In this document: piece after piece, positions 44,491 through 49,556 of the stretch | Numbering within the stretch: position 1 is the first letter of the stretch | How the letters are laid out: each line of letters opens with the position of its first letter | Source of the DNA: an uncultured Lachnospiraceae bacterium | Lineage (GTDB): Bacteria > Bacillota > Clostridia > Lachnospirales > Lachnospiraceae | Assembly (NCBI GenBank): GCA_949740535.1 | Contig: CATJHO010000094.1 | Location: forward strand, 1-54,209 | Direction: 5' to 3' | Length of the DNA: 54,209 bases | The notes under the pieces: model-generated | Told to the model about the DNA's origin: nothing | Database searches by the model: none | Seen by the model: the letters and a program-made list of their open reading frames with translations, nothing else | Position numbers and translations under genes: made by a program

Positions 44491-45132
44491 ATGGTAATCT
44501 ATTTGATCCGCCATGGTGAGACAGACTGGAATACCAAACGTCTGCTGCAGGGAACTGCGGATATTCCCCTGAACCAGAATGGGATTGAAGTCGCCAGGCT
44601 GACGGCAGAGGGATTGAAAAATGTGAAGTTTGACCGCATTTTTACCAGTCCCTTAAAGCGGGCAAAGGAGACGGCTGAAATTATCCGGGGAGAGCGTAAG
44701 ATTCCTCTGATAGTGGATGAACGGCTGCGTGAGATTGGCTTTGGACCCTATGAGGGTCTCTGCTGTCATAAGGATGGCTGGAATATCCCGGATCCAGAGT
44801 TTCGGAATTTTTTTACCAATCCGGGAGCATATGTGCCGCCAGAAGGCGGTGAGTCCATCCGCCATCTCTGTGATCGGACCACAGAATTTATAGAGGAGCT
44901 GGTACAAACCTTAGAATATCAGGAGGAAACCATTCTTTTGTCCGGTCACGGGGCTGTAGTCAAAGGGCTTTTAAGCAGTATTACCATCACAGATTTAAAG
45001 GACTTCTGGAAGGGAGGCGTGCATAAGAACTGCGGCGTTTCCATTCTGGATGCTGTGGATGGCGTGATTACCTTACGACAGGAGAATGTAATCTACTATG
45101 ATGAAAAAAGAAGTACCAACTATTTTGAATAA
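44491..45132 (+). CDS. Histidine phosphatase family protein (phosphoglycerate mutase-like)
   Basis: 213 residues. Active-site LIRHGETDWN at the start, FTSPLKRAKETAEII and the second His in LLSGHGAVVKGLL, the branch-1 histidine acid phosphatase fold. Broad substrate range: phosphoglycerate mutase, cobalamin or sugar phosphatases. Its end overlaps the start of ogt by 35 bases, so the two genes are probably one transcript. Confidence 0.94.
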   Translation: MVIYLIRHGETDWNTKRLLQGTADIPLNQNGIEVARLTAEGLKNVKFDRIFTSPLKRAKETAEIIRGERKIPLIVDERLREIGFGPYEGLCCHKDGWNIPDPEFRNFFTNPGAYVPPEGGESIRHLCDRTTEFIEELVQTLEYQEETILLSGHGAVVKGLLSSITITDLKDFWKGGVHKNCGVSILDAVDGVITLRQENVIYYDEKRSTNYFE

Positions 45133-45601
45133 GAAGAGATGCAGGGTAGAGACGCCCATAGGAGAACTGGAGCTTATGGAGGATGGAAAGGGGATCTGCG
45201 GCCTCTCATTCGGGTATGAGCGGCAGGAAAACGGGATCCCGGAGGAGGAGACGCCTCTGCTTCTGGAAGCGAAGAAACAGCTGGCAGCGTACTTTGCAGG
45301 AGAGCGCAGGGTCTTTGAGCTCCCTTTATCCATTGACGGCACGGAATTTCAGATGCGGGACTGGAAGGCCCTTCTGGATATCCCTTACGGAGAAACAAGA
45401 AGTTATGGGGAGATTGCCAAGGCCATCGGCTGTCCCAGGGGTAGCCGGGCAGTGGGAATGGCCAACCGGAATAATCCGATCGCCATTATCATTCCCTGCC
45501 ACCGGGTAATTGGTTCCGACGGAAGCCTGACCGGGTATGCGGGAAAAAACAAGGCTCTGGATATCAAAGAATATTTATTGAAACTGGAAGGAGCATTATA
45601 A
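45098..45601 (+). CDS. ogt: Methylated-DNA-protein-cysteine methyltransferase
   Basis: 167 residues. The acceptor cysteine is Cys134 in IIPCHRVIGSDGSLTGYAG, with the helix-turn-helix GETRSYGEIAKAIGCPRGSR upstream. It removes alkyl groups from O6-guanine in a suicide reaction. It begins inside the histidine-phosphatase gene and is followed 31 bases later by alkD, giving a small alkylation-repair unit. No Ada domain. Confidence 0.96.
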   Translation: MMKKEVPTILNKKRCRVETPIGELELMEDGKGICGLSFGYERQENGIPEEETPLLLEAKKQLAAYFAGERRVFELPLSIDGTEFQMRDWKALLDIPYGETRSYGEIAKAIGCPRGSRAVGMANRNNPIAIIIPCHRVIGSDGSLTGYAGKNKALDIKEYLLKLEGAL

Positions 45602-45632
45602 AAACAGACTCGTAGACATAGGAGAACAATCA

Positions 45633-46391
45633 ATGGAAACTGCTGTAAAATCAGTCCCGGTTATAACTGCAGAAGAAGTTCGCGCGCGTCTGCTTTCCCT
45701 TGCCGATGCGGGATATCGGGAGTTCCACAGCAGGCTGCTGCCTGGGGTAGACAATGTGCTGGGTGTGCGGGTGCCTGCCCTTCGCGGGCTGGCCAAAGAA
45801 ATTGCCAGAGGAGACTGGGAAGCCTTTCTGGAAGAGAATGATCGGGAATGGTATGAGAAGGATATGCTGCAGGGACTGGTCATCGGCTGCGCTAAAATGG
45901 ATTTTGAGAAACGGCTTGCCCTGACAAAGGCCTTTCTTCCACGTATCAATAACTGGGCCGTCTGTGATATCTTCTGCGGTTCTCTGAAAGAAACCAAAAA
46001 ACATAAAAAAGAAATGTGGGAGTTTCTGATGCCCTGTCTTCAGTCCGATGCGGAATATGAGATCCGCTTTGGAGTGGTTATGCTGCTCAGTTATTTTGTG
46101 GATGAGGAATACCGGCAGAGCGCTTTTGATGCTTTTGATGCCATTCACAGCGAAGCTTACTATGTGCGGATGGCGAAAGCCTGGGCCCTGTCGATGTATT
46201 TTGTGCATTTTCCGGAAGAAACTATGGCCTATCTGAAGAGCTGCTCCTTAGATGACTGGACCTACAACAAGGCCCTTCAGAAGACCATAGAATCCTGCCG
46301 TGTATCCAAAGAAATGAAAGAAGTGCTGCGGAGCATGAAGCGCAAAGGGACCCGTCAGGCCATATCAGCGGTTACCCGTGCATTGCCATAG
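45633..46391 (+). CDS. DNA alkylation repair protein, AlkD-like HEAT-repeat glycosylase
   Basis: 252 residues, helical HEAT-like repeats. Family motifs: LPGVDNVLGVRVPALRGLAK, EKDMLQGLVIG, INNWAVCDIFCGSLK, YVRMAKAWALSMYFV and DDWTYNKALQKTIESCRV. Such proteins excise bulky or cationic alkylated bases without flipping them. Residues Trp, Asp and Arg of the DNA-contact face (WAVCD, RMAKAW) are kept. The last 37 bases overlap the convergent dehydrogenase gene. Confidence 0.9.
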   Translation: METAVKSVPVITAEEVRARLLSLADAGYREFHSRLLPGVDNVLGVRVPALRGLAKEIARGDWEAFLEENDREWYEKDMLQGLVIGCAKMDFEKRLALTKAFLPRINNWAVCDIFCGSLKETKKHKKEMWEFLMPCLQSDAEYEIRFGVVMLLSYFVDEEYRQSAFDAFDAIHSEAYYVRMAKAWALSMYFVHFPEETMAYLKSCSLDDWTYNKALQKTIESCRVSKEMKEVLRSMKRKGTRQAISAVTRALP

Positions 46392-47656
46392 TCCCTGCCT
46401 TCATTAAAGTTCCGGGCATTTTCCATTGTTACAAAGGCAATGGCCTGGAGAGCCTCCCGTGTAAAGAATGCCTGATGGCTGGTGATCACCACCTGGGGGA
46501 ACATCAGAAGCCGGGCGGTAACATCTTCTGTAATCACCTCGTCACTGCGGTCCGTGTAGACATTGTCCCCCTCCCCTTCGAAGACATCTAAGGCTGCAGC
46601 GTGGAATTTTCCTTGTTTCAGCGCTGCGATGAGCGCTTCTGTGTCAATGAGGGCGCCGCGGGCGGTATTGACCAGCATAACCGTATCTTTCATAAGCCCA
46701 ATGGTTTTTTCGTTGACGATATGGTAGGTGCTTGGGAAGAGAGGCGCGTGAAGGGAGATCAGATCGGACCGCCGGAACAGGGTTTCCTGATCCACGTAAG
46801 TCAGCAGACCTTCTTCTTCCAGTTCCTTGTTGGGATAAGCGTCCCACCCAAGAACCGTCATGCCATAGCCCTTACAGATACGGGCCATGCAGACGCCGAT
46901 CTTTCCGGTTCCCAGGATCCCGGCTGTCTTGTTGTGGAGATCGAGGCCCAGAAGTCCGCTTAAGGCAAAATTGTTTTCCTTTACTTTGTTGTAGGCTTTA
47001 TGAAGATGCCGGTTTGCCTGCTGGAGAATGGCCATGGCGTGCTCCGCAACGGCATAGGGAGAATAGGCCGGTACCCGCAGAACGGTTATGTCATACTTCT
47101 GAGCCGTGGCCAGATCCACATTGTTGAAACCGGCACAGCGCAGCAGAATCAGCCGTATGCCGTATTCATGCAGCTGTTCCATCACCGGACGGGACACATC
47201 ATCATTTACAAAGACGCAGACAGCGTCACAGCCTTTGGCCAGACTGGCCGTCTCAGGTCCAAGGGTGGATGTGAAATAGTGGATATCCACATTGTAGGTT
47301 CCTTCGCCCTTGTCTTTTGCCAGTTCACTGAAAAAGGTGCAGTCGTAGTCTTTGGTCCCGAAAAATGCAATCCGGAGTACCGAAGCGGCGCCTTTTTCTC
47401 TGAAAGCTTCCCGGAGTACATTCTGCACAGCTTCATAAGCCTGCTCCTCATCCTCGCCGGAGATCTCAATGGTCAGCGTATCTCCCTCTTTGGCGCCCAG
47501 CGCCTGAAGAGCCAGTACATTCCGGCCGTCAGCGGTGCGGCCGTCTGTCTCCATGGTTATCAGGCTTTTAAAGCCTACGCAGCACTGGGCCAGCAGAGCG
47601 CTTGGACGGGCATGGACGCCCATGGGATTTTTTACAACATAGGTAATTGTTTTCAT
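46355..47656 (-). CDS. HPr domain fused to D-lactate-dehydrogenase-type 2-hydroxyacid dehydrogenase
   Basis: 433 residues. Residues 1-88 are a complete PTS phosphocarrier HPr domain: NPMGVHARPSALL puts His15 and Arg17 exactly at the canonical positions, but position 46, normally the regulatory Ser, is Asn (GRNVLALQALGAKEGDTL). From about residue 93 a D-2-hydroxyacid dehydrogenase follows: NAD motif GILGTGKIG, catalytic Arg in NTARGALID, Glu in DVFEGEGD and His in SHQAFFTREAL. It reduces pyruvate or another 2-oxoacid. Phosphorylation of His15 by enzyme I could tie the activity to sugar uptake. I know of no characterised fusion of this kind. Confidence 0.93.
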   Translation of the reverse strand: MKTITYVVKNPMGVHARPSALLAQCCVGFKSLITMETDGRTADGRNVLALQALGAKEGDTLTIEISGEDEEQAYEAVQNVLREAFREKGAASVLRIAFFGTKDYDCTFFSELAKDKGEGTYNVDIHYFTSTLGPETASLAKGCDAVCVFVNDDVSRPVMEQLHEYGIRLILLRCAGFNNVDLATAQKYDITVLRVPAYSPYAVAEHAMAILQQANRHLHKAYNKVKENNFALSGLLGLDLHNKTAGILGTGKIGVCMARICKGYGMTVLGWDAYPNKELEEEGLLTYVDQETLFRRSDLISLHAPLFPSTYHIVNEKTIGLMKDTVMLVNTARGALIDTEALIAALKQGKFHAAALDVFEGEGDNVYTDRSDEVITEDVTARLLMFPQVVITSHQAFFTREALQAIAFVTMENARNFNEGRDYGNARVTADMA

Positions 47657-47700
47657 TTCGCATTCATCCTTTCTTTTTGTTTCGGATCTTCCCTTAGTTT

Positions 47701-47899: not shown

Positions 47900-48610
47900 A
47901 TGGAACGAATATTAATTGTTGAGGATGACAAAGCCTTAAGCAACGGCATCGCCATTGCCCTGAAGGCAGAAGGATATATGTTTCTGCAGGCTCCAAGCAT
48001 TACAAAGGCCAGAGAGCTGCTGGAACAGCATCCCGTCTGTCTGGTGATTCTGGATCTGAATCTGCCGGACGGTGACGGCTTACAGCTTCTTCGTGAAATC
48101 AAAGAAGCCCAGGAGATACCGGTGGTGATTCTTACCGCAAAAGATCTGGAAACAGAAATCGTGACGGGTCTGGAGCTGGGCGCAGATGATTATATTACGA
48201 AGCCCTTCAGCCTTATGGTTCTGCGGGCCCGGATTCACACGCAGATGCGCAAAACCCGCAAAGCCGGCGTGCAGGTTTATCAGACGGGAGAATTTTATTT
48301 CGCCTTTTCCAGCATGGAATTTATCAAAGGGAACAGGCGGATTGATCTGAGCAAAACCGAGCAGAAGCTCTTACGCCTCCTGGTGGAGAACCGGGGCATT
48401 ACACTGTCACGCTCGGAACTGCTGGATCGGGTCTGGACAGACGGCGCCCAGTATGTAGATGAAAATGCTCTGTCTGTAACCATTAAGCGGCTGCGGGATA
48501 AGCTTGAGGATAATCCTTCCGCTCCCAGATATATCAAAACCGTGTATGGGATCGGATATACCTGGTCCGATGAGCGGTTTTCGGTGAAACGGAGCGGGGC
48601 TCATGGATAA
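47900..48610 (+). CDS. OmpR-family response regulator
   Basis: 236 residues: receiver with phospho-acceptor Asp52 (LVILDLNLPDGDG) and Lys in YITKPFSLMVL, then a winged-helix output (SRSELLDRVWTDGAQYVDEN, ALSVTIKRLRDKLEDN, VYGIGYTW). The kinase gene starts 8 bases before its end. No transport gene is directly attached, unlike many Bce-type systems. Confidence 0.96.
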   Translation: MERILIVEDDKALSNGIAIALKAEGYMFLQAPSITKARELLEQHPVCLVILDLNLPDGDGLQLLREIKEAQEIPVVILTAKDLETEIVTGLELGADDYITKPFSLMVLRARIHTQMRKTRKAGVQVYQTGEFYFAFSSMEFIKGNRRIDLSKTEQKLLRLLVENRGITLSRSELLDRVWTDGAQYVDENALSVTIKRLRDKLEDNPSAPRYIKTVYGIGYTWSDERFSVKRSGAHG

Positions 48611-49556
48611 TTGGTGGATCCTTCTTATAGTGCTTGTGATTCTGAATTGTCTCCTGGCAGGCTGTCTGCTGGTGCAGAGAAGACGGACAGAAAAGATGAT
48701 GGACCGGCTGGATCAGATGGTGGAAGCTGCCATAGACGGAAGCTTTGAGGAGAATTTTTTTGACGAGAGCCGCCTTTCCTGTTTTGAGGCAAGACTGTTT
48801 CAATATTTTCAGCGCCAGTCAGGAAGAGATAAGAAGCAGGCGGAGGAGCAGAAGGAAATCCATGAGCTGATTGCGGATATCTCCCATCAGACCAAGACCC
48901 CCATTGCAAATCTGGTGCTGTATGCCCAGCTTCTTCAGGAACAGCTTTGGGAGGAAGAGGCAGAAGAACTGGCGCGCCAGCTGAACGTTCAGGCAGAAAA
49001 GCTTCAGTTTCTCATTGCATCCCTGATCAAAAGCTCCCGGCTTAACCAGGGAATTATTCAGCCGGTTCCGCAGGAGCATTCCGTAAGAGAACTTATCAGG
49101 CAGACGGTGGAAATGGGAGAGCCGGCGGCCAGGCAGAAGCAGATCTGTCTTACGTGGCAGACAGAGACAGAAAAAGACACGGCATGCTTCGATATCCGCT
49201 GGACGGCGGAAGCAATGTGGAACATTCTCGATAATGCCATTAAATATACCAGCCCCAGGGATACGATTCTACTGAAAGGCTGTGCTTTTGAACTTTTTTA
49301 CCGGATCGACGTGATCGATCATGGAAGGGGGATTCCGGAGGATGAAATTCCCCGGATCTTCGGGCGGTTTTACCGGTCTGGCCGGACCGAGGAGGACGGT
49401 GTAGGCCTGGGACTGTATCTGGCCCGGAAAATTATCCGGATCCAGGGTGGATATATCAAAGTTACCTCCAAAGAAGAAACGGTATTTTCCGTGTATCTTC
49501 CAAGAAAGCTTGAAAACAGAATGATAAATGTGCAAAATGGAGTCAAGGCGCAGTAA
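48603..49556 (+). CDS. Sensor histidine kinase, cognate to the OmpR regulator
   Basis: 317 residues. One N-terminal membrane helix (WILLIVLVILNCLLAGCLLV) with almost no extracytoplasmic loop, so it may sense through a partner protein. HisKA with His95 in LIADISHQTKTPIANLVLYA, HATPase with DNAIKYTSP, DHGRGIPED and GVGLGLYLARKI. The gene overlaps the regulator by 8 bases. Its end forms part of a terminator hairpin. Confidence 0.95.
   Translation: MDNWWILLIVLVILNCLLAGCLLVQRRRTEKMMDRLDQMVEAAIDGSFEENFFDESRLSCFEARLFQYFQRQSGRDKKQAEEQKEIHELIADISHQTKTPIANLVLYAQLLQEQLWEEEAEELARQLNVQAEKLQFLIASLIKSSRLNQGIIQPVPQEHSVRELIRQTVEMGEPAARQKQICLTWQTETEKDTACFDIRWTAEAMWNILDNAIKYTSPRDTILLKGCAFELFYRIDVIDHGRGIPEDEIPRIFGRFYRSGRTEEDGVGLGLYLARKIIRIQGGYIKVTSKEETVFSVYLPRKLENRMINVQNGVKAQ

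Follow-up and report, generated by a model that had tools for sequence, protein, structure and literature searches.

What is an HPr domain doing at the front of a D-lactate dehydrogenase, and might it place this enzyme under the control of enzyme I? The question is raised by one open reading frame on the minus strand (46355 to 47656) of the window, by which we mean the whole analyzed stretch of 54,209 nucleotides from an uncultured Lachnospiraceae bacterium. The frame begins with ATG, has no internal stop and encodes 433 amino acids plus a stop, arranged as an HPr domain, a short linker and a D-lactate dehydrogenase. The HPr domain (residues 1-82) occupies 47411 to 47656 on the minus strand, as do all features of the gene, and includes the codons for His15 (47612 to 47614; position read by eye), the predicted site of phosphorylation by enzyme I, and Asn46 (47519 to 47521). 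The linker (residues 83-93; 47378 to 47410) leads into the D-2-hydroxyacid (D-lactate) dehydrogenase (residues 94-428; 46373 to 47377). Its Arg333 (46658 to 46660), Glu362 (46571 to 46573) and His394 (46475 to 46477) are what we take, from family motifs, to be the catalytic triad. A likely ribosome-binding site, AAAGGA-like and read by eye (47667 to 47672, minus strand), lies about 10 bases before the ATG.

An open reading frame for a PF08713 DNA-alkylation-repair protein (45633-46391) is convergent with the fusion gene, and the two 3' ends overlap by 37 bases. Together with a methylguanine-methyltransferase-like frame recognized by eye, it makes up an apparent DNA alkylation repair pair at 45098-46391. 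On the other side, divergent from the fusion gene, a histidine kinase is paired with a response regulator (Response_reg, Trans_reg_C) at 47900-49556.

The preliminary description had read the protein as an HPr domain with His15 and Arg17 at their canonical positions and Asn at position 46, followed without a break by a D-2-hydroxyacid dehydrogenase with its catalytic Arg, Glu and His, and profile searches bear out each of these assignments; the minus-strand orientation of the gene was not mentioned there. The Pfam PTS-HPr model (PF00381) matches residues 4-82 (1.5e-22; 79.9 bits against a cut-off of 23), and the NCBIfam HPr model TIGR01003 matches residues 1-81 (74.5 bits against 47.9). The phospho-site residues His15 and Arg17 of the HPr family are present, and the Ser46 typical of HPr from low-GC Gram-positive bacteria is missing, a lack shared by the ptsI-linked HPr of this genome and so no argument about membership of the HPr family as a whole. 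Both dehydrogenase domains are found as well: 2-Hacid_dh (PF00389) at residues 102-424 (3.9e-29) and 2-Hacid_dh_C (PF02826) at residues 209-396 (1.3e-50), with the catalytic Arg, Glu and His in place. No further PTS domain was detected by Pfam in the 433 residues at E 0.001, so the protein does not qualify as a multiphosphoryl transfer protein.

Among solved structures, matches to 3wx0, 5z1z and 4cuj are among the best, beginning at residue 94 or 95 with values of about 1e-96 to 1e-98. The first ten solved relatives are mostly named D-lactate dehydrogenase, and three carry only a general family name. In none of the best 60 of 189 structure matches does the best stretch cover the HPr part. Three NCBIfam D-lactate dehydrogenase models score below their cut-offs (VanH, 215 against 540 bits; PRK12480, 198.8 against 579; PRK08605, 185.9 against 356), and these look like descriptions of other D-lactate dehydrogenase subfamilies. 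We infer that the catalytic part is a fermentative-type, NADH-dependent D-lactate dehydrogenase, with both cofactor and substrate predicted.

The fusion is real. Genome contigs were scanned with peptide patterns taken letter for letter from the window protein; 140 relatives matched, of which the best 80 were kept. Each of these spans residue 1 to at least residue 428 and shares 64-80% identity with the window protein, which establishes that the fusion exists and not how common it is, since the patterns came from the window protein and only the best 80 of 140 were kept. Among 110 loci examined, 98 code for the protein in a single frame that covers at least query residues 5 to 400. These comprise all 80 loci from the contig scan and 18 of 30 from a genome survey, which partly draws on the same genomes; the other 12 survey loci are matches to the dehydrogenase only. 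An artefact of assembly or a frameshift is ruled out by the full-length fusion in many assemblies and isolates.

The same domain order, which it had been suggested should be sought in other Lachnospiraceae, occurs there and also outside this family. Carriers, with many gut and rumen bacteria among them, belong to Lachnospiraceae, Erysipelotrichaceae/Coprobacillaceae and Selenomonadaceae and include isolates, among them Sharpea azabuensis DSM 18934, Sharpea porci, Eggerthia catenaformis, Faecalibacillus intestinalis, F. faecis, Floccifex porci, Selenomonas montiformis and Mitsuokella multacida DSM 20544. The survey frequencies indicate a patchy distribution. The fusion is present in 14 of 15 same-genus relatives and in 18 of 145 genomes in all, the source genome included, and the family-wide counts are 13 of 397 genomes for the source organism's own family, 16 of 43 for the Sharpea family and 9 of 189 for the Mitsuokella family. 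The last count includes one genome (G360) matched to residue 362 only and another (G230) with a second, partial copy as well. Across the phylum, 3 of 398 genomes, again including the source genome, carry the fusion at E 1e-120. Plasmid records yielded 134 matches. All are below 60% identity, and 15 span 80% or more of the query; the five matches listed comprise the dehydrogenase part only.

Conservation was assessed in an alignment whose 99 rows, after 14 identical rows were collapsed, represent 85 distinct fusion proteins including that of the window. Within residues 2-82, nine positions are invariant: G13, H15, A16, R17, P18, L48, L53, G67 and E70. Five of these nine fall within residues 13-18 (hypergeometric p 2.8e-5, for a stretch picked after viewing the data). 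Arg333, Glu362 and His394 are invariant in all 85 proteins. Both active sites have thus been preserved. Mean pairwise identity is 54% for the HPr part and 78% for the dehydrogenase, so that the phospho-site is conspicuous within a domain that otherwise changes quickly. Judged from the aligned sequences, this fast drift gives few hints of a conserved interface; the exceptions are some nearly invariant positions, among them Gln24, Cys26, Ala42, Val47 and Asp69. Position 46 is Asn in 75 proteins, Asp in seven, Ser in two and Arg in one.

A two-gene version of the same partnership also exists. In two genomes, from two species of a different genus in the family (loci L024 in G045 and L135 in G650), an HPr gene lies immediately upstream of the dehydrogenase gene in the same direction, with gaps of 105 and 83 bases, counting the HPr stop codon. 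The separate HPrs carry H15, R17 and Q46. The paired dehydrogenase is 65% identical to the fused one, and its frame opens at the position matching residue 94 of the fusion. An HPr gene was found next to an unfused dehydrogenase at 2 of 18 loci when up to 1.5 kb was searched on each side. Separate-gene homologs had been named in the preliminary description, together with a frameshift or assembly join, as grounds for rejecting the fusion. Such homologs have indeed been found, in two genomes of one genus, but no assembly join has, and the fusion stands because dozens of other assemblies carry the joined form.

In an unrooted dehydrogenase tree of 58 rows and 341 columns, the 40 hand-chosen fused rows form one clade (support 100/99). 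The separate-gene pair branches outside this clade together with a locus that has no HPr gene nearby (L136; 93/74), and L035, on a long branch, adjoins the clade. Rows from Erysipelotrichaceae, Selenomonadaceae and Lachnospiraceae are intermingled in the dehydrogenase tree, as transfer between families would produce. In an HPr tree of 51 rows and only 87 columns, the 24 fused and two separate rows are divided from 25 other HPrs at 96/96, and the grouping persists at 98/96 when the divergent HPr-like rows L161, L166, L167 and L168 are removed. These HPr trees comprise HPr matches with a fetched locus, the short match L005 described below excluded. A dedicated HPr lineage therefore accompanies this dehydrogenase, whether joined to it or side by side.

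That the separate HPrs group with the fused ones while the paired dehydrogenase adjoins the fused clade supports a functional coupling of the two proteins. A simple reading of the trees is that the gene pair came first, followed by one fusion and then transfer between families; alternatively, the fusion may have been split later in the paired genus. The HPr trees cannot tell these orders apart because the separate pair sits among the fused HPrs, which by themselves form one side in only 22% and 20% of bootstrap trees. We weigh evenly for and against the broader proposal that these proteins constitute a separate class of fermentation switch, in which enzyme I, responding to phosphoenolpyruvate/pyruvate and sugar influx, would set overflow lactate formation by a direct post-translational route and a dedicated ptsH-like/ldhA pair, fused once, would have spread horizontally among gut and rumen Bacillota.

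The distribution of other dehydrogenase genes bears on what the fused enzyme does. No second LdhA-type gene was found at E 1e-70 in the 13 fusion genomes of the source organism's family, with up to four candidates scored per genome, whereas 160 non-fusion genomes among the 397 carry an LdhA-type gene, unfused or paired. The chance of finding none in 13 is about 9e-4 if the genomes, although related, are treated as independent. Among the same-genus relatives, only G004 lacks the fusion, and its LdhA, at 48% identity, is unfused. This mutual exclusion is informative in the source organism's family only, since the non-fusion genomes of the other two families likewise give no LdhA-type match at 1e-70 (0 of 27 in the Sharpea family and 0 of 180 in the Mitsuokella family). 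One carrier in the Sharpea-family survey (G177) has both the fusion and an unfused LdhA. At another locus (L036:3309-4313), a second D-2-hydroxyacid dehydrogenase frame starts about 11 bases past the fusion. G001, G003, G008 and G015 each have a second dehydrogenase match at most a few hundred bases away from the fusion, and L036 and G001 seem to represent one genome.

Gene neighborhoods were compared at 67 loci where the fusion gene was called, consisting of 63 mapped loci plus L088, L101, L104 and L109; at the other 13 of 80, an antisense frame had been called in place of the gene. A gene of the lactate permease family is the immediate neighbor at 10 of the 67 loci, all ten among the 63 mapped. 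Eight of these neighbors are divergent, and the other two share the strand of the fusion and lie directly upstream. Examples of the permease gene are L073:4437-5972 and L067:4301-5884, and the family assignment (PF02652) was confirmed in the two of the ten neighbors that were tested. Apart from this neighbor, no conserved operon is apparent in the mapped loci.

Upstream regions were searched for regulatory sites at 77 loci plus the window, with L037, L042 and L060 left out. CcpA (cre) sites occur at chance frequency: 3 of 78 regions have one, where shuffled sequences average 1.65, and with a looser form the figures are 16 of 78 and 10.6. Rex-like sites are in slight excess, in 10 of 78 regions against a mean of 5.25 and a highest value of 9 in 20 shuffles, and for a second form in 8 of 78 against a mean of 2.6 and a highest value of 5. 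This excess is too weak to use, and the sequences include near-copies.

Enzyme I, the presumed partner of the HPr domain, is encoded in the source genome, as is HPr kinase. Of 53 genomes carrying the fused or paired form, 51 gave an enzyme I match; the two without one are G003 (85% complete) and G167. All 18 carriers with a recorded completeness of 90% or more and contamination of 5% or less have the gene. These counts are compatible with a role for enzyme I and not diagnostic of one, since 177 of 200 genomes of the family (172 of the 195 good ones) also have an enzyme I gene.

The explanation that we favor, with somewhat more confidence than doubt, is that the protein is a D-lactate dehydrogenase with a built-in PTS input. 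Enzyme I is known to phosphorylate HPr domains with an intact site. Enzyme I charged by phosphoenolpyruvate (PEP) would phosphorylate His15, and when PTS sugars enter and the PEP/pyruvate ratio drops, the HPr domain would give up its phosphate, either back to enzyme I or to EIIA proteins. Whether the domain is phosphorylated would then alter the dehydrogenase, such that sugar influx gates D-lactate formation and, as the preliminary description supposed, enzyme activity may report PTS flux. We infer not only the phosphorylation of His15 but also the coupling of the domains and the direction of control. If control exists at all, the unphosphorylated state, which would prevail at high sugar influx and high pyruvate, is likely to be the one that favors conversion of pyruvate to D-lactate, and D-lactate formation would then track sugar influx. 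This direction is suggested by analogy with Vibrio vulnificus, where unphosphorylated HPr binds and stimulates pyruvate kinase A (PykA) according to the available text of PMC5987630. The explanation draws its support from this precedent, the domain content, the invariant sites, the trees, the missing second LdhA gene in the 13 genomes, the enzyme I genes of the carriers and the lactate permease neighbors.

A doubtful alternative is that the HPr domain serves as a docking tag: it would recruit the dehydrogenase to enzyme I or to EII complexes, the site where PEP becomes pyruvate, for local hand-over of pyruvate, without any allostery through phosphorylation. Enzyme I is established to release pyruvate, the substrate of lactate dehydrogenase, and Val47 (81 of 85) and Leu48 (85 of 85), which we take to form the hydrophobic patch facing enzyme I, are kept. 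The nearly constant length of the linker also suits a tether. Measured in the alignment from residue 82, itself counted, to the column of residue 94, it has 12 letters in 81 of 85 proteins, 11 in three and 13 in one. However, docking has no need for an invariant His15, since an HPr-like domain that cannot be phosphorylated would suffice, and the paired-gene version lacks the tether altogether.

A different possibility is that the HPr domain functions as an ordinary phosphocarrier feeding EIIA proteins, with the dehydrogenase as a mere passenger or expression partner. The fully kept phospho-site is in line with this, and HPr is known in fusions with EI and IIA domains (available text of PMC2405797). 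We nevertheless consider it improbable, because each of ten genomes searched, the source genome included, has at least two further HPr matches, in the source genome one linked to ptsI. Moreover, the partner is of the LdhA type in every fusion examined, although this is partly by design because the searches began from this fusion.

The source genome has five HPr matches in all, the fusion included. The ptsI-linked HPr, encoded beside the enzyme I gene, carries H15 and R46, a third HPr carries H15 and S46, a Crh-like paralog carries E15 and S46, and one match is degenerate. Three of these paralogs lie at G000:C119:7451-7690 (L001), G000:C71:23921-24160 (L002) and G000:C108:11576-11818 (L003), and a same-genus genome (G010) has near copies of all three. 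HPr duties seem to be split among the paralogs, of which the H15/S46 protein has HLRP around His15. A short HPr-like frame (L005, G000:C78:15738-15890) matches from profile position 20 on, has no His15 loop and contains a DAKSIMG segment; similar partial matches occur in G010, G045, G080, G606 and G650. Since paralogs in the same genomes have lost His15, as with Glu15 of the Crh-like protein, its retention in the fusion is informative.

In HPr proteins that are substrates of HPr kinase, position 46 is Ser. The preliminary description had concluded from Asn46 that HPr kinase does not control the fusion, and this is probably so, Ser46 being gone. The substitution does not make the protein special, however: the ptsI-linked HPr has Arg46 and Ser46 is found on other paralogs, which weakens the absence of Ser46 as a mark of an unusual protein.

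HPr acts on further enzymes besides PykA. The HPr domain of the fusion might thus regulate other proteins in trans, leaving the dehydrogenase part unaffected, and the action of HPr on V. vulnificus PykA (available text of PMC5987630) offers a precedent, yet we regard this reading as no likelier than that of a working phosphocarrier, for it leaves unexplained why HPr is paired with a D-lactate dehydrogenase in both fused and adjacent form. Least credible of all is a neutral fusion through loss of a stop codon between neighboring genes, with no functional coupling: a deletion could join adjacent genes like those of the two relatives, but the joined form persists across several interleaved families, where the aligned rows share 64-80% identity with the window protein and both active sites are invariant.

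If the favored reading of a built-in PTS input is correct, the protein would provide a direct covalent link from sugar uptake to the choice of fermentation product, a link that is otherwise made by metabolite effectors or transcription. Fusion carriers include known lactate producers. Sharpea azabuensis produces lactate in the rumen (available text of PMC6781651), and a D-lactate dehydrogenase of this species is highly expressed, with a 12-fold increase in low-methane sheep that accompanies PTS genes (available text of PMC5069950). By analogy with the related Sharpea porci, whose genome has a single strong match, the fusion at 3.2e-199, with the second-best match at 8.7e-32, the reported S. 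azabuensis gene would be the fusion. In the open-access literature, with subscription journals and preprints outside the scope of the search, none of the titles and abstract openings listed reports an HPr-lactate dehydrogenase fusion. In a classification of the dehydrogenase family, 'HPR' appears only in names such as hydroxypyruvate reductases (available text of PMC6303947).

Among known systems, the protein resembles fermentative LdhA over the whole catalytic part, to which the fusion adds the HPr part. It resembles the HPr family (PF00381, TIGR01003) in its full-length domain with His15 and Arg17, and differs in the attached enzyme, in the replacement of Ser46 in 83 of 85 proteins and in grouping, along with the two separate-gene HPrs, apart from the 25 other HPrs. 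LacS-type transporters carry a IIA domain as a regulatory input on a non-PTS protein; there the transporter's IIA domain is phosphorylated by HPr, whereas here an enzyme carries the HPr domain itself, a predicted target of enzyme I. HPr occurs as a single polypeptide or within multiphosphoryl transfer proteins such as FPr and MTP, which likewise use it as a module, but their partners are EI and IIA domains and here the partner is a metabolic oxidoreductase; the available text of PMC2405797 names no oxidoreductase partner, and the word dehydrogenase is absent from its main text. In the HPr-PykA system of V. vulnificus, phosphorylation state controls an enzyme at the pyruvate node, as is proposed for the fusion. 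There, HPr is a separate protein acting in trans, whereas here it is a covalent part of the polypeptide.
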